DNA from: Pseudomonas alcaligenes
Lineage (GTDB): Bacteria; Pseudomonadota; Gammaproteobacteria; Pseudomonadales; Pseudomonadaceae
NCBI RefSeq assembly: GCF_014490745.1
Contig: NZ_LZEU01000001.1
Coordinates: 3,375,501 to 3,439,500, forward strand
Direction of reading: 5' to 3'
DNA: 64,000 nt
In this document: positions 5,423 through 43,922 of the stretch, piece by piece
Layout: every line of letters begins with the position of its first letter
Position numbering within the stretch: the first letter of the stretch is position 1
Program-made: the position numbers and the translations under genes
Notes under the pieces: generated by a model
What the model was told of the DNA's origin: nothing
What the model saw: the letters and a program-made list of their open reading frames with translations, nothing else
The model's database searches: none

Positions 5423-6475
5423 TCAGCTCCACACCGGCCAGGCCGGCTGCTGCTGGGTGATGCAGTGCACCCCGCCGCCGCCATGGGCCAGGTTGTTGAT
5501 CTGCACCGGCACCACTTCGCGGCCCGGGAAGGCCATGCGCAGGGTGGCGGCCGCGTCCTGGTCGGCGGCGATGCCGTAGGCCGGCATGATGATGGCGCCG
5601 TTGGCGATGTAGAAGTTGGTGTAGGAAGCGCAGAACACTTCCGCCTCGGTATCCACCGCCTCGCTGGCCTCGAACAGCTCGAGCATCTCGAACTTGCGCC
5701 CGCGGGCATCGGTAGCCAGCTCCAGGGCACGGCGGTTCTCGCGCACCACTTCGGCATACACCGAGGACTGATCACGGGTGGCGTCCACCAGCAGCGCACC
5801 GGGCTTGGCGAAGGCGCACACGCCGTCGATGTGGCCGTCGGTCATGTCGCCGGTGACGTGATCCGGGTCGCCCGGCAGCCAGATGGTCTTCTTCACCCCG
5901 AGCAGACGGGCGAAGATTTCCTCGATCTCGGCCTTGCTCATGCCCGGGTTGCGGTTGGTGTTGAGCAGCACCGATTCGGTGGTGATCAGGGTGCCGTCGC
6001 CGTCGACATGGATGGCGCCACCTTCGTTGGAGAGCGGCGTACCGAAGCACTCCAGGCCGAGGCCGTTGAGGATGCGGCGGGCCAGGCCCTCGTCGAGATC
6101 ATGCTCGGACTTGCCGCCCCAGGAGTTGAAGCGCCAGCTGACCCCGGCCATACCCAGTTGCGGGTGGCAGACGAAGCTCGGCCCGGAGTCGCGGCACCAG
6201 CTGTCGTTGACCGGCAGCTCGATCAGCTCGATGTTGGCGCCACACAGTTCGCGGGCACGGAAGGCCGCCGAACGGTCGACCACCATCTTCACCGGCTCGA
6301 AGCGGGCAATGGCGTTGGCGACGCGGGCGAAGTCGACCTGCACCTCGGCCAGGGTCACGCCCCAACCGGACTCCCACAGTGGCTGGTTGTGCGGCCAGAC
6401 CATCCAGGTGGCGGCGTGCGGAACCCATTCGGCGGGCATGAACCAGGTGTTTTCTGCGACTGCGTTATGCTGCAT
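5423..6475 (-). CDS. aguA: Agmatine deiminase
   Basis: Converts agmatine to N-carbamoylputrescine and ammonia in the cytoplasm. It is 350 residues long without a signal peptide. Motifs seen: WFMPAEW at the N-terminus, NDSWCRDSGP, the EGGAIHVDGDG loop, NRNPGMSK, and the C-terminal GGGGVHC with catalytic Cys338. The start at 6475 has GAAGG seven bases upstream; a longer open frame to 6583 would run into the promoter region. It is the first gene of a minus-strand operon with aguB, a binding protein and probably the porin and second deiminase. A LysR-type regulator is divergent, with a palindrome at 6581-6597 between them. Confidence 0.93.
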   Translation of the reverse strand: MQHNAVAENTWFMPAEWVPHAATWMVWPHNQPLWESGWGVTLAEVQVDFARVANAIARFEPVKMVVDRSAAFRARELCGANIELIELPVNDSWCRDSGPSFVCHPQLGMAGVSWRFNSWGGKSEHDLDEGLARRILNGLGLECFGTPLSNEGGAIHVDGDGTLITTESVLLNTNRNPGMSKAEIEEIFARLLGVKKTIWLPGDPDHVTGDMTDGHIDGVCAFAKPGALLVDATRDQSSVYAEVVRENRRALELATDARGRKFEMLELFEASEAVDTEAEVFCASYTNFYIANGAIIMPAYGIAADQDAAATLRMAFPGREVVPVQINNLAHGGGGVHCITQQQPAWPVWS

Positions 6476-15083: not shown

Positions 15084-15287
15084 TCAGCCGGCGGCCAGAG
15101 CGACCAGCGCCGCCAGCACACAGATATAGAGGGCCACGTCGAACAGCGCCTCATGCCAGATCCAGCGCGCCACGCCGACCCGCTGCAGACCCAGGCGCAG
15201 CACCCCGGTCAGCAGCAGCGCCACCAGCGCATAGATCAACAACGGGCTGAGCAGCACACCGCCCCAGGCCCACTCACGCAACGCCAT
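15084..15287 (-). CDS. DUF1656 (AaeX-like) small membrane protein
   Basis: A 67-residue protein with two hydrophobic segments (about residues 10-30 and 47-66). DUF1656 proteins regularly lie between FUSC-type permeases and HlyD adaptors. The ATG at 15287 lies inside the 3' end of the permease gene (14-bp overlap), implying translational coupling. Its function in the pump is not known. Confidence 0.8.
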   Translation of the reverse strand: MALREWAWGGVLLSPLLIYALVALLLTGVLRLGLQRVGVARWIWHEALFDVALYICVLAALVALAAG

Positions 15288-21639: not shown

Positions 21640-21690
21640 CAAGCAGCCATGCCTCGAATAACCAACTTCAAACAAATCAGCCCAGCATAA

Positions 21691-21714
21691 AAAACGGGCG
21701 ACCGAAGTCGCCCG
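21691..21714 (-). terminator. Intrinsic terminator of the ccoM-like gene
   Basis: Stem CGGGCGAC-CGAA-GTCGCCCG (21695-21714) followed on the minus strand by six T, 31 bp after the stop codon. Confidence 0.8.
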
Positions 21715-21744
21715 AAATGCCTTGCGTGCACGATTGCGGAAGGA

Positions 21745-21867
21745 TCAGTCAGCTTTGACCTTGACCCGATGGGCATCCTTCCAGATGAACAGACCAACGC
21801 CGCCGAAGAAGGCGAACATCAGAGCGACTGTGCCGATGCCGGCGAGAACCACAGTATCGATGAACAT
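21745..21867 (-). CDS. ccoM: CcoM-like single-helix subunit of cbb3 oxidase
   Basis: A 40-residue protein: MFIDTVVLAGIGTVALMFAF, then FGGVGLFIWKDAHR and a basic tail. One transmembrane helix ends in the IWKDA motif, which closely resembles CcoM, a small stabilising subunit described for the P. stutzeri cbb3 cytochrome oxidase. A perfect AGGAGG lies seven bases before the ATG, an Anr-type box lies at 21934-21947 and a terminator follows, so this is a real, separately transcribed gene. Identification rests on sequence pattern recall; the cbb3 structural genes are not in the window. Confidence 0.7.
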   Translation of the reverse strand: MFIDTVVLAGIGTVALMFAFFGGVGLFIWKDAHRVKVKAD

Positions 21868-21933
21868 GGCGGGCCTCCTGCGCGGAGCCTGTTGGAGATG
21901 GCTTCAAGGTACGCGCAGGACGGCAGCGGGATA

Positions 21934-32653: not shown

Positions 32654-33436
32654 CTACAACGTGCAGAGGATGATCTGCTCGGCGTCGATCAATAGCTGCA
32701 GCGCCTGACCCGGCTGCAACCCCATGCCCTCGACCTGGGCATCGGACAGCACGGCCACCAGCTGCCCGCCGCCATCCAGTTCGACCAGGGCCTCGCAATG
32801 CTCGGCATCGCGCCGCAGCTCGCCCAGGCGGCCGCTCAGGCGGTTGTCGGTAGAGCTGGCCACGGCATCCTCCGCCAGCAGGCGCACCCACGGTGCCTTG
32901 ACCAGGGCGCACAGCTCCACGCCGGGCTGCAGGCCCAGGCGCTCCGTGCTGGCATGGGTGATCAGCGCCTGCAGCAACTGGCCGCCGGCCAGCCTGAACT
33001 CGACCCGGTCGTTGAGGCCTTCGGCGTGGATGGCCACCACCTGGCCCGGCAACTGGTTGCGCGCGCTGCTCCGCAGGCTGAGGCGCTCCATCATCTGCAG
33101 CAGGGATTCCAGCTGCGGATCATCGCCCAGGCGTTCGAGAAAGCGCCGGTGCTCGTCCTGGTAGCGCCGGTAAGACTCGATCAGCTGCTGCCCGGCCTGG
33201 GTCAGGCGCGTGCCGCCACCGCCCTTGCCGCCCACCGAGCGCTCTACCAGCGCGCTGCCGGCGGCATTGTTCATGGCATCCACCGCGTCCCAGGCCGACT
33301 TGTAGCTCATGCCCATGGCCTTGGCCGCCCGGGTGATCGAACCGCTCTCGGCGATGCGCGAGAGCAGCTCGATGCGTCCCTGGCCTGCCAGGTTCTTGCC
33401 ATTGCGGGTGATCCAGAAACGTCCTTCGAGCTTCAT
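32654..33436 (-). CDS. modE: Molybdate-responsive regulator ModE
   Basis: A 260-residue regulator that represses modABC when molybdate is bound. The N-terminal winged helix (about residues 15-115) has GSITRAAKAMGMSYKSAWDAVDAMN, the ModE recognition region, and RSVGGKGGGGTRLT in the wing. Two Mop-like molybdate-binding domains follow (about 125-190 and 195-258). It converges on arsJ and lies 44 bp downstream of the nasA stop on the same strand. A matching operator lies in front of modA at 41129-41152. Confidence 0.93.
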   Translation of the reverse strand: MKLEGRFWITRNGKNLAGQGRIELLSRIAESGSITRAAKAMGMSYKSAWDAVDAMNNAAGSALVERSVGGKGGGGTRLTQAGQQLIESYRRYQDEHRRFLERLGDDPQLESLLQMMERLSLRSSARNQLPGQVVAIHAEGLNDRVEFRLAGGQLLQALITHASTERLGLQPGVELCALVKAPWVRLLAEDAVASSTDNRLSGRLGELRRDAEHCEALVELDGGGQLVAVLSDAQVEGMGLQPGQALQLLIDAEQIILCTL

Positions 33437-36400: not shown

Positions 36401-37590
36401 GCCTTGACCTTGCCCGCCGCCATATCCTCGAACAGGCCGACGGTGCCGCCACCCAGGCGGGTATGCAGGGTGCCCGGCGCTACGCCCCAGGCGTTCTCGA
36501 CAAAAGTGCGGTCGTCTTCCACCAGCACCGAGCGCTGCCCCGGCAAGCCGGGGCCCATATAGCCCATCTCGCGGCCGCCCATGGCGTTGGGCTGGCCGGT
36601 CAGGGAGAACGGCCCGCTGCCGGGGCGACAGATCTTGCCGGTGGCCAGGTGCAGGTTGCAGATGGCGTTGGTGTTCCAGGTGCCGTGGGTGCTCTGGTTG
36701 AGGCCCATGGTCCAGCAGCTCATCCACTCCCCCGCCGCGCCGATCCACTGGGCGGCCTGGCGGATGGCGGCCTCATCCAGGCCGGTCAGCGCAGCTACGT
36801 ACTCGGGGGTGTACTCGGCGAGGAAGGCGGGCATGACCTCCCAGCCCTCGGTGAAGCGCTCGATAAAGGCCGAGTCGGTGTGGCCGTTTACATGCAGCAG
36901 ATGCAGCAGGCCGTTGAGCAGCGCCAGGTCGCTACCGGGTTTGATCTGCAGGAACAGATCGGCCTTGTCCGCCGTGGCGTTGCGCCGCGGGTCGACCACT
37001 ATCAGCCTGGCCCCGGCCTTGACCCTGTCCATCATGCGCAGGAACAGGATCGGGTGGCAGTCAGCCATGTTGGCCCCGATGACGAAAAACACATCGGCCT
37101 GGTCGAAATCCTGGTAGGAGCCGGGCGGGCCGTCGGCGCCCAGCGACAGCTTGTAGCCGCTGCTGGCGCTGGCCATGCACAGGCGCGAGTTGGACTCGAT
37201 CTGGTTGCTGCCCAGGTAACCCTTGACCAGCTTGTTGGCCAGGTACTGCGCCTCCAGCGACAGCTGCCCGGACACGTACAGGGCGATGGCGTCCGCGCCG
37301 TGCTCGTCGAGGATCGCACGCAGGCGCCGGGCGGCGTCGGCGATGGCCTCGGCCATGGGCGTGCGCACCGGCTCGCGGCTGCGCTCCGCGCGCGCATAGG
37401 CGTGCGCCATGCGTCCGGACTCGACCAACGGCTGGTTGCAGGAACTGCCTTTGGTGCACAGGCGGCCGAAGTTGCTCGGGTGCTGCTTGTCGCCCGCGAC
37501 CTTGACCACCTTGCCCTCCGCAACCTGCATGACGATGCCGCAGCCAACGCCGCAGTAAGGGCATACGCTCCGTATCGTCTGGTCAGCCAT
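33481..37590 (-). CDS. nasA: Assimilatory nitrate reductase fused to a sulfite-reductase-type flavoprotein
   Basis: A 1369-residue cytoplasmic enzyme reducing nitrate to nitrite. Residues 1 to about 735 form a bis-MGD molybdoenzyme: CPYCGVGC near the N-terminus with a later CTKGSSC give the [4Fe-4S] cysteines, and the molybdopterin dinucleotide domain ends in HWNDVYGDN and SQQPEFKS. From about 840 on is a CysJ-like module: flavodoxin (LLWASQTGNCEALAERF), FAD domain (RLYSISSSP) and NAD(P) domain (MIGPGTGVAPFRGF), ending YLRDVY. The fusion lets one chain pass NAD(P)H electrons to nitrate. A strong internal ribosome site lies at the junction. Upstream are a sigma-54 promoter and an antiterminator leader. 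Similar fusions are known in pseudomonads. Confidence 0.93.
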   Translation of the reverse strand: MADQTIRSVCPYCGVGCGIVMQVAEGKVVKVAGDKQHPSNFGRLCTKGSSCNQPLVESGRMAHAYARAERSREPVRTPMAEAIADAARRLRAILDEHGADAIALYVSGQLSLEAQYLANKLVKGYLGSNQIESNSRLCMASASSGYKLSLGADGPPGSYQDFDQADVFFVIGANMADCHPILFLRMMDRVKAGARLIVVDPRRNATADKADLFLQIKPGSDLALLNGLLHLLHVNGHTDSAFIERFTEGWEVMPAFLAEYTPEYVAALTGLDEAAIRQAAQWIGAAGEWMSCWTMGLNQSTHGTWNTNAICNLHLATGKICRPGSGPFSLTGQPNAMGGREMGYMGPGLPGQRSVLVEDDRTFVENAWGVAPGTLHTRLGGGTVGLFEDMAAGKVKACWIICTNPVASMANRGKVIEGLKAAELVIAQDAFLDTETNRYADILLPGALWAEAEGVMINSERNLSLMQQAVAPPGEAMADWQIIAEVACAMGFAEAFTYASAAEVFEEIKRFHNPKTGYDLRGASHARLRETPLQWPCASAAGADRAPIRYFNDGISQRLKLAEDGSTPAIAFATPTGKAQFFARPHLDPAEMPDADFPFVLNTGRLQHQWHTLTKTGKVATLNKLNPGPFVEVHPEDAENLGVRDKDHLEIRSRRGHAVLPVVVTDRVLPGGCFAPFHWNDVYGDNLAINAVTSDAVDPISQQPEFKSCAVSLRRVELIDHQFLQTPASAASDPTSSEPLSEELDMSHIDAFASLLGLAIGAPPALSESERTYMAGFIGGLRANPGGGVPSLPPQAPLAEPTRLWLDGLLAGMFSRMALGAPLQLGGEATAVLPAPGAQVPVTLLWASQTGNCEALAERFAGRLKAAGCAVELADMSGYPLEKLGSAGNLLLLSSTFGDGDAPDSGQGFWAQLKASSADLAALRYAVLALGDPNYDQFCQHGKNLDGRLAELGASRLLERVDCDTEFEEPADAWLAALLPLLKPEQDTTQGPVEIPAAAVTAVSVSKEQPAAARQLLNLRLNREGASKDTRQFAFALGDSGLTYEAGDALGVWPRNCPELVAEVIERAGLDGEQLVSVAKVGDLPLREALTSHYEIARPSSEALALIAERSGNSELRGLLGNKEQLKDWLWGRQLADVLQAFPAEHAAGELLGSLKRLQPRLYSISSSPKAHAGEVHLTVSAVRYGKRKGVASTFLADRVADGEVPLFVQTSKHFRVPQDGEVPMIMIGPGTGVAPFRGFLHERRARGDAGRNWLFFGEQHAASDFYYRDELQAMQRDGLLTQLSLAFSRDQAEKIYVQDRIREQGAELWRWLQDGAQVYVCGDASRMAKDVDTALRDVAREHGGLSDEKAAEYIRALAEGKRYLRDVY
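35355..35366 (-). promoter_or_regulatory. Possible internal ribosome-binding site at the NasA-flavoprotein junction
   Basis: On the minus strand GAGGAA stands six bases before an in-frame ATG (Met746, MSHIDAF; ATG at 35355-35353). Start here would yield a free flavoprotein of 624 residues. Sequence pattern only; no proof of use. Confidence 0.4.
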
Positions 37591-37604
37591 GGTCGCTCCC
37601 GAGC

Positions 37605-37694
37605 CAAAAACAAAGGCGCCATGCCGCCCTTCGCAGCAAGCGAGAGCAACACGGCGCCTTTGTCGTGAATGGGCAACCTGCATTGATTGCCTTT
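37605..37694 (-). ncRNA. nasA leader RNA with tandem hexaloop hairpins and a terminator (ANTAR/NasT type)
   Basis: On the minus strand P1 is GGCAATC-AATGCA-GGTTGCC (37691-37672). After CATT comes P2, CACGAC-AAAGGC-GCCGTG (37667-37650, one A-C mismatch). Both loops have six bases with A first and G fourth, as in the RNA motif bound by ANTAR proteins. P2 shares bases with the 5' arm (37662-37653) of a terminator whose 3' arm is 37620-37611, followed by T5. P2 and the terminator therefore exclude each other. NasT, the expected antiterminator, is not encoded here. Confidence 0.7.
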
Positions 37695-37705
37695 GCTCGG
37701 GTATT

Positions 37706-37720
37706 GCAAGGCATACGCCA
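37706..37720 (-). promoter_or_regulatory. Sigma-54 promoter of nasA
   Basis: On the minus strand TGGCGTATGCCTTGC, with GG and GC separated by ten bases and a full TTGC at -12. The transcript would start near 37694, three bases before hairpin P1 of the leader. Confidence 0.65.
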
Positions 37721-37924
37721 GACAGCGGCTTACCCGCGCCAATCCCCGCCCGGCGTGGCCTGGGGCGCTGCCGCAGTCTGCTGCGGGGCGCACCACGGCG
37801 AATCACAATGGGGCGACAGGCCGCCCGCGCGCCCCTTTTTGGTTCCAGCCGAGTTCTCCCCAAGCAGCCCGCCACTGCACGCACAGGCCCATGTTGCAGG
37901 GGCTGCAGGGCGCTTTCAGAAAGC

Positions 37925-37940
37925 TGGCACAACCACTGCA
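37925..37940 (+). promoter_or_regulatory. Sigma-54 promoter of nirBD
   Basis: TGGCACAACCACTGCA matches TGGCAC-N5-TTGC with one change and the strict ten-base GG-GC spacing. Predicted start near 37950. The 200 bp between this and the nasA promoter would hold activator sites; I could not pick out a convincing NtrC palindrome. Confidence 0.75.
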
Positions 37941-37949
37941 TAGGTCGAT

Positions 37950-38092
37950 GCAAGCCCGCCACATCCGGGCCGTCCATTCGATCAAAGGCGATCGACAGCC
38001 AACGCTGGCAATGGACATCAACGGCACCCGCATAGGGAGTCGTACAGAACAGGCAAAGGCGCCTGAGACCGCAAGGTTTCAGGCGCCTTTTT
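37950..38092 (+). ncRNA. nirB leader RNA with hexaloop hairpins and terminator (ANTAR/NasT type)
   Basis: Three hairpins have six-base loops with A first and G fourth: TCGATC-AAAGGC-GATCGA (37978-37995), GCC-AACGCT-GGC (37998-38009) and CAGGC-AAAGGC-GCCTG (38050-38065). The first two are enclosed by an outer stem, GTCCATT (37972-37978) with AATGGAC (38010-38016). The third uses the 5' arm of a 16-bp terminator (38055-38070 with 38075-38090, loop GCAA) followed by TTATTT. The arrangement fits antitermination by NasT before nirB at 38137. Confidence 0.7.
38055..38092 (+). terminator. Regulated terminator in the nirB leader
   Basis: Stem begins AAAGGCGCCTGAGACC and closes on a GCAA tetraloop, with one G-U pair; T-rich tail. 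It lies 45 bp before the nirB ATG, so it must be bypassed for expression. Confidence 0.85.
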
Positions 38093-38136
38093 ATTTGCCG
38101 CGCAAACAACCTGATGAGCTTTGGCCGGGAAACGCT

Positions 38137-40695
38137 ATGAACAGCACAGTCGCCTCCACCCATGACAAGCAAACGCTGATCGTCGTCGGCAACGGCATGG
38201 TCGGCCACCACTGCGTCGAACAACTGATCGAGCGCGGTGCGCTGGCCAGCTACCAGGTGCATGTGTTCAGCGAAGAGCCGCTGCGCGCCTACGACCGCGT
38301 GCACCTCTCCGAGTACTTCGGTGGCCGCGATGCCGAATCCCTGGCCCTCAGCGGTGCCGAGCTGTACCAGACCCCGGGCGTGACCCTGCACCTGGGCGTG
38401 CCGGTGCTGGAGATCGACCGCGAGCGCCGCGAAGTGATCAGCGCCGACGGCTGCTACCCCTACGACCAACTGGTGCTGGCCACCGGCTCCTACCCCTTCG
38501 TGCCGCCGATCGAAGGCGCCGAGGGCAACTCGCGCCTGGTCTATCGCACCCTGGCTGACCTCGACACCATTCGCGCTGCCGCCAGCCAGGCCAAGCGCGG
38601 TGTGGTGGTCGGCGGTGGCCTGCTCGGCCTGGAAGCGGCCAATGCGCTGAAGTCGCTGGGCCTGGAAGCCCATGTGGTGGAGTTCGCTCCACGCCTGATG
38701 CCGGTACAGCTGGACGATCACGGCGGCCTGGCGCTGAAGGCGCAGATCGAAGCCCTGGGCGTCAGCGTGCACCTGTCCAAGGCGACCCAGTCGATCAGCG
38801 CCGGCAGCGAGTACCGCTACCGGATGAACTTCGCCGGCGAAGACTTCCTGGAAACCGACCTGATCGTGTTCTCCGCCGGCATCCGTCCGCAGGACGCCAT
38901 CGCCAAGCAGTGCGGCCTGGAACTCGGCCCGCGCGGCGGCATAGCCATCGACAGCCAGTGCCGCACCAACGACCCCTACATCTATGCCATCGGCGAGTGC
39001 GCGGCGTGGAACGGCGGCATCTTCGGCCTGGTCGCGCCGGGCTACCAGATGGCCCGCAGCGTCGCCAGCCAGCTTTGCGGCGAAGACGCCGAGCCGTTCA
39101 TGGGCGCGGACATGTCGACCAAGCTCAAGCTGCTTGGCGTCGATGTCGGTTCCATCGGCGACGCCCACGGCGCCACCGCCGGCTCGCGCAGCTATCGTTT
39201 CATCGACGAGGCCAACGCCAGCTACCGCCGCCTGGTGGTTTCCGCCGACGGCAAGCAGGCCCTCGGCGCCGTGCTGGTCGGCGACAACAGCTACTACGAC
39301 ACCCTGCTGCAGTACGTGCAGAACGGCATCGCCCTGCCCGCCGATCCGTCCGGGCTGATCCTGCCGCAAAGCGAAGGCACCCCGGCCCTCGGCGTCGACG
39401 CCCTGCCGGCCACCGCCACCGTGTGCTCCTGCCACAACGTCAGCAAGGGCGCGATCTGCGCCGCCATCGACGAAGGCTGCAGCGACCTCGCCGGCATCAA
39501 GGCCTGCACCAAAGCCGCTACCGGCTGCGGCGGCTGCTCGGCCCTGCTCAAGCAGGTGTTCGAGCACGAGCTGACCGCCCGCGGGGTCAGTGTCGACAAG
39601 AGCCTGTGCGAGCACTTCGCCTTCACCCGCCAGGAGCTGTACGGCATCGTCCGCGTGGAAGGCATCGAGAGCTTCGAAGAGCTGCTGGCCAAGCACGGCC
39701 GCGGCCATGTCGGCTGCGATATCTGCAAGCCGGCGGTAGGCTCGATCCTCGCCTCCTGCTGGAACCGCCCGATCACCAATGCCTCGCTGGTGCCGCTGCA
39801 AGACACCAACGACACCTTCATGGCCAACATGCAGAAAAACGGCACCTACTCGGTGGTGCCGCGCATCCCCGGTGGCGAGATCACCCCGGACGGCCTGATC
39901 GCCATCGGCGCGGTGGCGAAGAAATACGACCTCTACACCAAGATCACCGGCGGCCAGCGCATCGACCTGTTCGGCGCCCAGCTGCACGAACTGCCGGACA
40001 TCTGGGCCGAGCTGATCGCCGCCGGCTTCGAGACCGGGCATGCCTACGGCAAGTCGACCCGCACGGTGAAGTCCTGCGTGGGCAGCACCTGGTGCCGCTA
40101 CGGCGTGCAGGACAGCGTGGCCATGGCCCTGCTCATCGAGGATCGCTACAAGGGCCTGCGCTCGCCGCACAAGCTCAAGTTCGCGGTCTCCGGCTGCACC
40201 CGCGAATGCGCCGAGGCGCAGAGCAAGGACGTTGGCGTAATCGCCACCGAGAAAGGCTGGAACCTCTATATCAGCGGCAACGGCGGCATGCGCCCACGGC
40301 ATGCCGAACTGTTCGCCACCGACCTGGATGACGACACCCTGATCCGCTACATCGACCGTTTCCTGATGTTCTACATCCGCACCGCCGACCGCCTGCAGCG
40401 CACCTCGGTATGGCGCGAGTCGCTGGAAGGCGGCCTGGACTACCTCAAGGCAGTGATCATCGACGACAGCCTGGGCCTGGCCAACGAGCTGGAAGCGCAG
40501 ATGCAGCTGGTGGTCGATCGCTACGAATGCGAATGGGCGGGCGCCCTGAAGGATCCGGAGAAGCTCAAGCGCTTCCGTACCTTCGTCAACGAACAAGGCG
40601 GCGACCCGGACATCCAGTTCGTCGAGGAACGCGGCCAGCGCCGTCCGATCAGCGCCGCCGAACTGCAACTTATCCCCGCGATGGAGGTGGTCTGA
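38137..40695 (+). CDS. nirB: Assimilatory nitrite reductase, large subunit
   Basis: Reduces nitrite to ammonium with NADH in the cytoplasm. It is 852 residues. In order: FAD- and NADH-binding domains (about 8-300, VVGNGMVGHHC and VVVGGGLLGLEAAN), a BFD-like [2Fe-2S] domain (CSCHNVSKG...GCGGC, about 429-470), and the sulfite/nitrite reductase hemoprotein halves (about 550-790). The siroheme-[4Fe-4S] cysteines are in SCVGSTWC (about 646) and SGCTREC (about 687). The stop overlaps the nirD start by one base (TGATG). A sigma-54 promoter and regulated leader precede it. Confidence 0.96.
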   Translation: MNSTVASTHDKQTLIVVGNGMVGHHCVEQLIERGALASYQVHVFSEEPLRAYDRVHLSEYFGGRDAESLALSGAELYQTPGVTLHLGVPVLEIDRERREVISADGCYPYDQLVLATGSYPFVPPIEGAEGNSRLVYRTLADLDTIRAAASQAKRGVVVGGGLLGLEAANALKSLGLEAHVVEFAPRLMPVQLDDHGGLALKAQIEALGVSVHLSKATQSISAGSEYRYRMNFAGEDFLETDLIVFSAGIRPQDAIAKQCGLELGPRGGIAIDSQCRTNDPYIYAIGECAAWNGGIFGLVAPGYQMARSVASQLCGEDAEPFMGADMSTKLKLLGVDVGSIGDAHGATAGSRSYRFIDEANASYRRLVVSADGKQALGAVLVGDNSYYDTLLQYVQNGIALPADPSGLILPQSEGTPALGVDALPATATVCSCHNVSKGAICAAIDEGCSDLAGIKACTKAATGCGGCSALLKQVFEHELTARGVSVDKSLCEHFAFTRQELYGIVRVEGIESFEELLAKHGRGHVGCDICKPAVGSILASCWNRPITNASLVPLQDTNDTFMANMQKNGTYSVVPRIPGGEITPDGLIAIGAVAKKYDLYTKITGGQRIDLFGAQLHELPDIWAELIAAGFETGHAYGKSTRTVKSCVGSTWCRYGVQDSVAMALLIEDRYKGLRSPHKLKFAVSGCTRECAEAQSKDVGVIATEKGWNLYISGNGGMRPRHAELFATDLDDDTLIRYIDRFLMFYIRTADRLQRTSVWRESLEGGLDYLKAVIIDDSLGLANELEAQMQLVVDRYECEWAGALKDPEKLKRFRTFVNEQGGDPDIQFVEERGQRRPISAAELQLIPAMEVV

Positions 40696-41072
40696 TGGGC
40701 CAGTCGAGCGCAACCGCAGTAGCCGAGCAACAACACCTGCAATGGCGCCCCCTGTGCAGCCGTGCCGACCTGGTGGCCAACTCCGGCGTGGTCGCCTGGG
40801 TCGATGGCGCCCAGGTCGCCCTGTTCTACCTGCCCGAACAAACCCAGGGCAAACAGCTCTACGCCGTGGATAACCGCGACCCGCAGTCCGGCGCCAACGT
40901 CATCGGCCGCGGCATCATTGGCAGCCTGGCCGGCGACCTGGTGATCGCCGCGCCGCTGTACAAGCAACACTACCGCCTGGAAGACGGCACCTGCCTGGAA
41001 TACCCCGAGCAGCAGCTGCGCACCTGGCCGGTTCGCCTGCAGGGCGACACGGTGGAAATCGGCCTGGCCTGA
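40695..41072 (+). CDS. nirD: Nitrite reductase small subunit
   Basis: A 125-residue partner of NirB with a Rieske-like fold. The paired Cys/His ligands of true Rieske proteins are absent, as is normal for NirD. Motifs: GVVAWVDGAQVALFYLPE, YAVDNRDPQSGANVIGRGI and APLYKQHYRLEDGTC. GGAGG stands seven bases before the ATG, inside the end of nirB, so the two are coupled. A terminator follows at once. Confidence 0.94.
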   Translation: MGQSSATAVAEQQHLQWRPLCSRADLVANSGVVAWVDGAQVALFYLPEQTQGKQLYAVDNRDPQSGANVIGRGIIGSLAGDLVIAAPLYKQHYRLEDGTCLEYPEQQLRTWPVRLQGDTVEIGLA

Positions 41073-42089: not shown

Positions 42090-42134
42090 GCCGCATAGCT
42101 ACAGTTGCCTGCCCAGCCGAAGGAAAGCTCAGCA

Positions 42135-42815
42135 ATGCCCCTGACCAGCGCCGACTTCACCGCCATCGGCCTGACCCTGCAACTGGCCGCGCTGACCACC
42201 GTGCTGCTGCTGTTGTTCGGCACGCCCATCGCCTGGTGGCTGGCGCGCACCCGTTCCTGGCTGAAAGGCCCGATCGGCGCGGTGGTCGCCCTGCCCCTGG
42301 TGCTGCCGCCGACGGTGATCGGTTTCTACCTGCTGGTGACCCTGGGCCCGCACGGCCCGATCGGCCAGCTGACCCAGAGCCTGGGCCTGGGCACTCTGCC
42401 GTTCAGCTTCGCCGGCCTGGTGGTGGGCTCGGTGTTCTACTCCCTGCCCTTTGTCGTGCAACCGATCCAGAACGCCTTCGCCGCCATCGGCGAGCGTCCT
42501 CTGGAAGTCGCCGCCACTCTGCGCGCCAGTCCCTGGGACAGTTTTTTCACGGTCGCCCTGCCGCTGGCACGGCCCGGTTTCATCACCGCCGCGGTGCTGG
42601 GCTTTGCCCACACCATCGGCGAATTCGGCGTGGTGCTGATGATCGGCGGCAATATCCCCGGCAAGACCAGCGTGGTTTCGGTGCAGATCTTCAACCATGT
42701 CGAGGCCCTGGAATACTCCCAGGCCCACTGGCTGGCCGGCGGCATGCTGCTGTTCTCCTTCCTCATCCTGCTGACCCTGCACTTGCGCAGCCGGCCGCAG
42801 CCGCTGGGGGCCTGA
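42135..42815 (+). CDS. modB: Molybdate ABC permease
   Basis: A 226-residue inner-membrane permease with five hydrophobic segments. The ATPase-coupling EAA motif is [32 protein letters not shown] eight bases before ATG 42135. It ends three bases before modC. Confidence 0.94.
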
Positions 42816-42818
42816 GCC

Positions 42819-43922
42819 ATGACTCAAGCCACTGCCGAGCAACGCCTGCAGGCATGCTTCCGTCTGACCCATGGCAGCTTCCGGCTGGATGTCGACCTGG
42901 ATCTGCCCGGCCGTGGCGTCACCGCCCTGTTCGGCCCTTCCGGCTCCGGCAAGACCAGCCTGCTGCGCTGCGTCGCCGGTCTGGAACGGGCCGAGCTCGG
43001 CCAGCTGCGGGTCAACGGCGAGCTGTGGCAGGACAGCAGCCGCGGCCACTTCCTCGCCCCGCACCAGCGCGCCCTCGGCTACGTGTTCCAGGAGGCCAGC
43101 CTGTTCGAGCACCTGTCGGTGCGCGGCAACCTGGAGTACGGCCAAAAACGCATCACCGCCGCCCAGCGCCGGGTCGGCCTGGAACAAGCGCTGGAGCTGC
43201 TCGGCATCGAGCACCTGCTGGAACGCCGGCCGGCCCGTTTGTCCGGCGGCGAGCGGCAGCGAGTGGCCATCGCCCGCGCCCTGCTCACCAGCCCGCGCCT
43301 GCTGCTGCTGGATGAACCGCTGGCGGCCCTCGACCCGCAGCGCAAGGCGGAGATCCTGCCCTACCTGGAGCGCCTGCACGACGAGCTAGAGATTCCCGTG
43401 CTCTACGTCAGCCACGCGCCGGATGAAGTAGCGCGCCTGGCCGACCACCTGGTGCTGCTGGAACAGGGCCAGGTGCGCGCCAGCGGCGCAGTCGACGAGC
43501 TGTTGAGCCGCCTCGACCTGCCCCTGGCCCACAGCGAGGATGCCGGCGTGGTGGTACAGGCCCGGGTTGCCAGCCACGATGCCGACTACCAGCTGCTCAG
43601 CCTGAACTTCCCCGACAGCGACATGCAGCTGCGCATCGCCCACGGGCCGGTGGCCAGCGGCAGCCTGATGCGCCTCAAGGTGCAGGCCCGCGACATCAGC
43701 CTGAGCCTGGACAAGCCGCAGCACAGCAGCATCCTCAACCTGCTGCCGGTCACCGTGCACAGCCAGGCGCCGGCCGACAACCCGGCCCATGTTCTGGTGC
43801 GCCTGGACATGCACGGCACGCCGCTGCTGGCGCGCATCACCCGCTACTCGCGCGACCAGCTCGGCCTGCGCGACGGCCAGCTGCTGTGGGCGCAGATCAA
43901 GTCGGTCGCCCTGCTGGCCTAG
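42819..43922 (+). CDS. modC: Molybdate ABC ATPase
   Basis: A 367-residue ATPase of the molybdate importer. Walker [11 protein letters not shown], signature [15 protein letters not shown], Walker [13 protein letters not shown] and H-loop [12 protein letters not shown] are present; the C-terminal part (about 295-360) is the Mop/TOBE domain. It completes modABC and is followed 14 bp later by a DUF1543 gene that may be read through. Confidence 0.95.

Follow-up and report, generated by a model that had tools for sequence, protein, structure and literature searches.

The closest described system is the NalA leader of the nirBD operon of Pseudomonas. According to the accessible part of a review, NasT antiterminates nirBD through this leader, which lies behind a sigma54 promoter with NtrC, and c-di-GMP weakens the binding of NasT (PMC12830290, citing Romeo et al., 2012 and Nie et al., 2024). 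A NalA homolog with conserved -24/-12 boxes and a terminator is described for P. protegens (PMC3973561). In Paracoccus denitrificans, a hairpin leader before nasA is bound by NasT in vitro (PMC3795266; PMC5424462), and the control of the nasTS genes is attributed to an NtrC site (PMC5424462). The targets of ANTAR proteins follow a dual-hexaloop rule, in which G is needed at loop position 4 and the length of the linker is limited, this limit being a measurement on EutV in the eut system (PMC3369931; PMC8934654). In Bradyrhizobium, NasT hairpins were predicted before narK and the narK of this organism rose in a nasT mutant, so such a leader is not in itself proof of positive control (PMC6759348). 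All of these sources were accessible in part, and what we take from them here and below is limited to that text. Since NasT antitermination of nirBD through NalA has already been published for Pseudomonas, the core mechanism considered here is not new.

The nasA-nirB locus of Pseudomonas alcaligenes resembles NalA, as it is known from P. aeruginosa and P. putida, in having a sigma54-type promoter, a leader with a terminator before nirB and a presumed NasT antiterminator, but differs in the presence of a divergent nasA preceded by a separate leader. What we say of the branched domain of the nirB leaders, of their long folded spacer and of their migrating third hexaloop comes from comparison, NalA being accessible to us through citing text. 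With the dual-hexaloop elements of other ANTAR proteins (EutV/eutP, NasR/nasF and AmiR/amiE), the leaders share two hexaloops with A in the first and G in the fourth position (A1/G4) and a second hairpin that excludes the terminator; unlike in those elements, the first hairpin (P1) of the nirB leader lies inside a branched domain, far in sequence from the second (P2). As in P. denitrificans, a NasS-NasT system is combined with a hairpin leader before nasA, whereas the nasST genes themselves have a NasT-type leader here, in contrast to the NtrC site described for Paracoccus. The nirB leader variant, a reading of the Rfam narK RNA and a wider NasT regulon are newly described here by computation. 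Taking all of the evidence below together, we consider it very probable that in both leaders a nitrogen-regulated sigma54 promoter is followed by an antitermination switch that responds to nitrate through the ANTAR protein NasT.

The stretch of DNA analysed, hereafter the window, comprises 64,000 nt of P. alcaligenes (GCF_014490745.1, contig NZ_LZEU01000001.1, positions 3,375,501-3,439,500, forward strand). The gap between nasA (minus strand, start at 37590) and nirB (plus strand, start at 38137) extends from 37591 to 38136, which are the 546 bp given in the original prediction, and Pfam domains uphold the gene identities assumed there (nasA, nirB/nirD), the order in NasA being molybdopterin oxidoreductase domains followed by C-terminal flavodoxin/FAD/NAD domains. 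The gap contains two divergent leaders, each composed of a promoter, A1/G4 hexaloop hairpins and a last hairpin, with the loop AAAGGC, that shares bases with an intrinsic terminator (Table 1). The promoters, with their GG-N10-GC or -24/-12 patterns, are of what we take to be the sigma54 type. The best matches to an NtrC site in the gap covered 8 of 12 positions, a score often reached in 300 shuffles, and no such site is claimed here; a CGCACC-N5-GGTTCC stretch resembling the candidate site recurs in several relatives. Rfam matches to ctRNA, microRNA and Scr6925 on the same leader hairpins were below their own thresholds and were treated as chance. Elsewhere in the window, the small RNAs PhrS (143.1 bits, 21687-21907, minus strand) and P18 (78.2 bits, 15129-15263, minus strand) matched above threshold. 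The nas genes are flanked by a gene for a ModE-like regulator (HTH_1 and two TOBE stretches; 32654-33436, minus strand) and by ABC transporter permease and ATPase genes (TOBE; 42105-43922, plus strand) that are presumably for molybdate uptake, and these neighbours fit with NasA being a molybdenum enzyme.

Table 1. Features of the nasA-nirB locus, in window positions.
Feature	Position	Strand	Basis
nasA, assimilatory nitrate reductase, 1369 aa	33481-37590	-	Pfam
nasA intrinsic terminator: hairpin 37664-37609, T5 37610-37606	37606-37664	-	fold, -39.1 kcal/mol
nasA P2 hairpin CACGAC[AAAGGC]GCCGTG, overlapping terminator 5' arm; loop 37661-37656	37650-37667	-	fold
Rfam RF03032 "narK RNA" match, 47.6 bits (gathering cut-off 43.2)	37651-37719	-	Rfam scan
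nasA P1 hairpin GGCAATC[AATGCA]GGTTGCC, A1/G4 hexaloop	37672-37691	-	fold; covariation, 24 sequences
nasA sigma54-type promoter TGGCGTATGCCTTGCA (GG-N10-GC)	37705-37720	-	same pattern in 31 of 32 nasA leaders
nirB sigma54-type promoter TGGCACAACCACTGCA	37925-37940	+	pattern match upstream of each of 81 nirB genes
5' hairpin of nirB leader	37954-37970	+	fold
Branched domain (three-way junction), outer stem 37972-37977/38011-38016	37972-38016	+	fold; covariation in 45 leaders
Hairpin A TCGATC[AAAGGC]GATCGA, conserved P1-type hexaloop; loop 37984-37989	37978-37995	+	fold; comparison
Hairpin B GCC[AACGCT]GGC or GCCA[ACGC]TGGC, lineage-specific hexaloop; loop 38001-38006	37998-38009	+	fold
Spacer hairpin C	38021-38043	+	fold
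H3 (P2) hairpin CAGGC[AAAGGC]GCCTG, overlapping terminator 5' arm; loop 38055-38060	38050-38065	+	fold; core in 81 of 81
nirB intrinsic terminator: hairpin 38055-38090, T5 38088-38092	38055-38092	+	fold, -30.0 kcal/mol
nirB, NADH-dependent nitrite reductase large subunit, 852 aa	38137-40695	+	Pfam
nirD, nitrite reductase small subunit, Rieske_2 domain	40695-41072	+	domain match

For the comparison, the best 80 of 588 loci found in a NirB search, all from Pseudomonas, were taken together with the window, giving 81 nirB leaders. The nasA set has 32 leaders, from the window and from 31 of the 80 loci, in which nasA is likewise divergent from nirB; in one further locus, L081, nasA lies upstream in the other orientation.

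The nasA leader has the short P1-P2 linker of ANTAR targets, with 17 nt from loop to loop in the window and a median of 18 nt in the 32 loci. P1 carries an A1/G4 hexaloop in 30 of the 32 leaders, the exceptions being L022 and L075 (an earlier script, taking the nearest hairpin as P1, found A1 in 27 and G4 in 25), while the AAAGGC loop of P2 and its CGACAAAGGCGCC are present in all of them; the P2 stem of the window contains one A.C mismatch. Seven leaders have 31-39 nt between the loops (L005, L007, L009, L010, L012, L013, and L026), and most of these have a CAGGCA-like stretch in common between P1 and P2. One A1/G4 hexaloop hairpin was reached in 142 of 5000 dinucleotide shuffles of the nasA leader, which is weaker evidence; the conservation across relatives removes the doubt that this result leaves over so short a leader. 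In the nasA alignment (A2, 24 of the 32 leaders, omitting the seven long-linker loci and L075, which is without an A1/G4 P1), P1 showed 13 double-change cells vs. 4.8 after shuffling, and the alignment a covariation score of 0.209 vs. 0.142, neither reached in 500 shuffles. The P1 pairs with double changes (2) and further pair types (10) were not above the shuffles, 440 and 417 of 500 of which reached them.

Folding of the nirB leader likewise reproduced the A1/G4 six-base-loop hairpins that the original prediction had seen in both leaders, with the two AAAGGC loops that share the terminator 5' arms exactly where it had placed them (37656-37661 and 38055-38060). Of 5000 dinucleotide shuffles of the nirB leader, 7 reached three A1/G4 hexaloop hairpins when the stems had to have 3 bp or more, and 6 reached two when 4 bp or more were required. 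The enclosed hairpins had been proposed to form a three-way junction unlike the simple tandem arrangement, and indeed the outer stem refolds and covaries in 45 leaders. The additional pair of hexaloops thought to be enclosed in this junction stands in part: hairpin A is general, and the second hexaloop occurs in few relatives. In the window itself the hexaloop of hairpin B is only possible, because the minimum-energy fold closes AACGCT to the tetraloop ACGC.

In both leaders, folding shows that AAAGGC and the 3' arm of its hairpin constitute the 5' arm of the terminator, so that the two structures share the same bases. This arrangement is strongly conserved among the relatives. The core of H3, GGCAA[AT]G[AG]CGCC, is found in all 81 nirB leaders (the best 80 of 588 loci and the window), and, with G-U pairs counted, its arm can pair with the terminator 3' arm at 9 of 9 positions in 80 of them and at 8 of 9 in L002; the corresponding arm makes 9 of 9 pairs in each of the 32 nasA leaders. 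The fifth base of the nirB loop and its partner in the terminator are A-T in 38, G-C in 35 and G-T in 8 leaders, with no mismatch. As this covariation links a loop in one of the structures with a stem in the alternative one, it is the mark of an exclusive switch. Moreover, upstream of H3, A1 and G4 are present together in 87 of 131 hairpins with a hexaloop and 5 bp or more vs. 3 of 230 hairpins with loops of 4, 5, 7, or 8 nt, in counts where the relatives are not independent. Loss in relatives of the A1/G4 letters or of the exclusive pairing, named beforehand as what would speak against the switches, was looked for, and both features proved conserved.

The nirB alignment (A1) contains 45 sequences, obtained by dropping L003, L017, L022, L075, L079, and L081 as atypical and thinning the other 75 to less than 90% identity. 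The stated structure (outer stem, A, C, and H3) has 90.1% of its cells paired, vs. only 25-43% for slid versions of it, an advantage to which its having been drawn from the tested sequences contributes. It has 11 double-change pairs vs. 6.1 and 41 double-change cells vs. 16.8 in shuffled alignments (none of 500 reaching either), although in shuffle tests of this kind, those of the nasA leader included, kinship alone can place sequences above the shuffles without any structure. H3 is invariant and its own stem has no covariation. RNAalifold alone recovered hairpins A and H3 from this alignment, with a weak covariation term; B and C vary in length between groups, and the outer stem and C were instead tested as the stated structure. 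A scan of all pairs of alignment columns was uninformative.

The exclusive pairing also bears on the idea that these structures are mere terminators of stable leader RNAs, acting in trans as small RNAs like Rfam P11 and not as switches. Rfam lists P11 (RF00625) as a small RNA gene and its model matches the nirB leader, albeit at 33.9 bits, below the threshold of 70 bits, which none of 10 relatives scanned reached either; besides, termination would yield a leader RNA whichever explanation holds. However, a small RNA has no need of a terminator-proximal hexaloop hairpin, of the A1/G4 rule or of covariation between loop base 5 and the terminator, coding genes lie directly downstream, and the published NalA leader is bound by NasT, according to the accessible text. 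We therefore regard this explanation as highly improbable. The opening of the terminators by another nitrate or nitrogen signal, through a riboswitch or a different RNA-binding protein, seems equally far-fetched: it draws on the fact that the binding of NasT is deduced here, and has against it that the hexaloop signature is that of ANTAR targets, as the accessible literature describes them, that one ANTAR protein was detected in the genome, and that leader and ANTAR gene occur together across the class, at most 5 kb apart in 11 of 12 genomes.

This one ANTAR protein (a single PF03861 match in the genome of P. alcaligenes) is NasT, a receiver-ANTAR protein of 192 aa whose gene lies directly 3' of that of a NasS-like binding protein. 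Its residues 3-186 match by sequence the chains 1s8n, a putative antiterminator that we believe to be Rv1626, and 6wsh/6ww6 (EutV). An in-frame TGA in NasS paralogs was found to be the normal stop codon in the four that were checked. The presence of a single ANTAR protein agrees with the original prediction that one NasT controls both halves of the pathway from one gap, and we infer such control of the two leaders in P. alcaligenes; nevertheless, the leader type is not confined to this gap, as detailed below.

The nirB leaders depart from the other ANTAR leaders in the position of their hexaloops. In the nirB alignment, the loop of hairpin A has A in position 1 in 40 of 45 sequences and G in the five of a P. 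syringae-like group, with G4 in all 45, and H3 has both A1 and G4 in all 45. When hairpin A was sought in all 81 leaders without any demand on the loop letters, it was picked in 78, with A1 in 68 and G4 in 75, three of these picks being another hairpin (L002, L064, and L079); in a first parse it is kept in 77 of 81, the four without a recognisable A being L017, L022, L075, and L079. Hairpin C ends in an A1/G4 hexaloop in 32 of 76 nirB leaders and not in the other 44, among them the window, and hairpin B has such a loop in L069, L070, L072, L073, and L080 (ACTGCA, ACAGCA, or ACCGCA), and possibly in the window (AACGCT). Because these other hexaloops are not general, we consider A and H3 to be the conserved pair, with a third hexaloop in B or C in some lineages.

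The distance from loop A to loop H3 is 65 nt in the window, with a median of 77 nt (39-207, n = 77), vs. medians of 17-20 nt in the nasA, narK, nasS, and porin leaders. Such spacing breaks the short-linker rule known for EutV from the accessible papers, unless the spacer folds. The total linker of the nirB leaders ranges from 4 to 186 nt and contains one spacer helix in 72 of 77. With constrained folding, its unpaired part was 12-13 nt in 41 of 77 leaders, 10-15 nt in 57 and outside the latter range in 20, a constancy that rests on predicted folds of related species and on a script that chose hairpin A with G4 required. In the window, 10 nt stay unpaired between the branched domain and H3 once hairpin C is folded as predicted. 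The spacer of L003 (P. resinovorans, upstream of position 6001) has 186 nt instead of about 50, and its predicted fold leaves 15 unpaired, while in L081, where A and H3 are present and the spacer hairpin is absent, 18 nt are unpaired. A short linker in the sequence, as in the nasA leader, is thus not found in the nirB leader and appears only if the spacer hairpin folds, and the nirB leader is therefore filed as a variant that may work like the ANTAR family. A model of the nirB leader (R2) matched only the genome of P. alcaligenes among 274 genomes of the class, which is weak evidence of absence elsewhere because the filters were strict and few Pseudomonas were sampled.

The nirB leader could instead work through an ordinary close pair, with the hexaloop of hairpin C as P1 and the branched domain with hairpin A as an accessory. 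Hairpin C lies nearer H3 than hairpin A, its loop is an A1/G4 hexaloop in the 32 leaders mentioned above, and P. cichorii (L017), devoid of hairpin A, keeps an A1/G4 hexaloop hairpin before H3. This arrangement is nevertheless unlikely in our opinion, given that the loop of hairpin C differs in size or in its letters in the remaining 44 leaders, the window included, that hairpin A is kept in nearly all of the set and that L081 has A and H3 but no hairpin C. We rather propose that the spacer hairpin, by shortening the unpaired distance, would still allow the same NasT to pass between hairpin A and H3. The spacer hairpin is read here as keeping both hexaloops within the reach of NasT, which is the least certain step of the model.

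The nasA leader belongs to a motif already present in Rfam. It matches RF03032, the "narK RNA", which does not match the nirB leader and which models the promoter and the P1 stem only: the consensus begins with GGCaCAgcucUUGCU, its single modelled stem is hairpin P1, with the hexaloop AACGGC, and the model ends inside the P2 hairpin. We take GGCaCAgcucUUGCU to be a sigma54 -24/-12 element. The Rfam output for this family carries no ANTAR interpretation, and a literature search on "narK RNA" retrieved nothing, which does not show our reading to be unprecedented. Among 274 genomes across the class, 13 have a match to RF03032 at E of at most 0.001, only three of them above the Rfam cut-off, and an ANTAR protein is encoded in 12 of these 13 vs. 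75 of the 261 others (Fisher p = 5.8e-6). The match lies within 5 kb of the ANTAR gene in 11 of the 12 genomes and at 9 kb in the remaining one; in the exception (G101, L099), the match is without a visible hexaloop pair. Within the family, 146 of 198 genomes have a match at E of at most 1e-4, and the gene following 60 of the best-scoring matches listed is most commonly narK (45), then nasA (11) and nasS-nasT (4).

In all 60 of these fetched matches, a pattern resembling a promoter is accompanied by a loop of the P1 type, by a P2 motif, which has A1 in 59, and by a terminator arm in which 8 or 9 of the 9 pairs can form. These counts come from more permissive patterns written after viewing the sequences of the 60 narK RNA loci and of 30 nasS loci; a stricter first script, for which P2 needed a stem of 3 pairs and the terminator had to be nearly perfect, recovered all of the elements in 39 of 60 and 14 of 30, respectively. 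Since the matches carry promoter, P1, P2, and terminator arm, the narK RNA is best regarded as the combination of a sigma54 promoter and an ANTAR leader.

In the genome of P. alcaligenes, RF03032 has further matches outside the window, preceding a narK-kinase locus (L108), nasS-nasT (L110), a porin (L111), and a decayed nasA start (L109), those at L110 and L111 being below the Rfam cut-off. At L108 (G000:C1:2478926-2478997, plus strand), a NasT-type leader stands before a NarK-family transporter gene with a PP2C/kinase (kinase/phosphatase) gene downstream. At L110 (G000:C1:3291544-3291618, plus strand), a promoter of the sigma54 type and a NasT-type leader precede the nasS-nasT operon itself. 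By the permissive patterns, the 30 nasS loci (the best listed matches, with that of P. alcaligenes included) have a promoter-like pattern in 30, P1 in 27, P2 in 29, the terminator arm in 28, and all four in 26, and position 1 of P2 is A in 20 and G in seven of the 27 counted. A model built from the nasA leaders (R1) missed nearly all of them, with two weak matches in the 30 loci, and the nasS leaders were found by pattern scripts instead. A further R1 match (L085/L112, 20.1 bits) has no terminator by eye and was treated as chance.

At L111 (G000:C1:1555949-1556022, minus strand), a leader of the same type lies before a porin of the alginate-export family. Among 30 porin loci, that of P. alcaligenes included, 19 have a promoter-like pattern and a leader, with both hairpins, each A1/G4, in 18. 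The other 11, all of them less similar homologs, have no such leader, and 10 of these instead have a TTGA[CT]-N4-[AG]TCAA box, presumably of the Fnr/Anr kind. In one genome, the porin is located 3' of clustered genes for NasS, for NasT, in which the ANTAR domain was confirmed, and for a nitrate ABC transporter.

At L109 (2300-2760), a nasA-type leader (62.2 bits) is followed by a decayed nasA start and a PAS-GGDEF-EAL gene, with a relaxase gene located beyond it on the opposite strand. Control of a c-di-GMP protein by a NasT leader would be tempting, because c-di-GMP is reported to inhibit NasT in the accessible text cited above, but the decayed 5' end of nasA intervenes and we treated the leader as a relic. 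Homologs of this PAS-GGDEF-EAL protein (E of at most 1e-200) occur in 2 of the other 197 genomes of the family, at neither of which a narrow motif search retrieved such a leader.

As leaders precede nasS-nasT, the NasT regulon appears to include its own regulator genes. The patterns found point to a regulon wider than the gap and, by implication, to autoregulation of NasT, of which no statement was found in the literature searched, itself accessible in part and with few subscription papers.

The anatomy and conservation of the leaders, their covariation, the single ANTAR gene detected, and the co-occurrence of leader and ANTAR gene across genomes are observed features of these sequences, from which the use of the promoters, the binding of NasT, the dependence on nitrate, the handover across the folded spacer, and the autoregulation are inferred. 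Judging from the promoters, RNA polymerase would start both transcripts under nitrogen limitation. Without nitrate, NasS would hold NasT, and the arm containing AAAGGC would pair with the 3' arm of the terminator, ending transcription. Nitrate or nitrite would release NasT, which would bind the upstream hexaloop and then the terminator-proximal one; the latter, once bound, would keep the arm within the small hairpin and thereby prevent formation of the terminator. In the nasA leader, NasT would find both hexaloops in an ordinary close tandem, 17 nt from loop to loop. In the nirB leader, the upstream hexaloop would be presented on the branched domain, 65 nt away, with the spacer hairpin cutting the unpaired distance to 10 nt (10-15 nt in most relatives).

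More tentatively, the nirB leaders may form a distinct class of ANTAR targets, with a branched-domain hexaloop, an evolvable spacer hairpin that, large or small, holds the effective linker at about 12 nt, and, optionally, a third hexaloop (in hairpin C in many Pseudomonas, in hairpin B in some others and perhaps in the window) as a second landing site for NasT, a single pool of which would switch nirBD at a threshold different from that of nasA. This is possible rather than probable; if true, the different threshold would have the nitrite reductase ready before the nitrate reductase, and the NasT regulon that holds nasA and nirBD would also include the genes of its own regulator.

Antitermination by ANTAR proteins is a widespread bacterial switch, and the linker rules found in the accessible literature were measured in the eut system. 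The nirB leaders, in which the total linker is variable and its predicted unpaired part is mostly 10-15 nt, would offer a direct test of the handover model. Reading the narK RNA as a promoter with an ANTAR leader would give this motif a function and a ready search model, while the leaders before nasS-nasT and the porin suggest a self-reinforcing NasT regulon for the use of nitrate.
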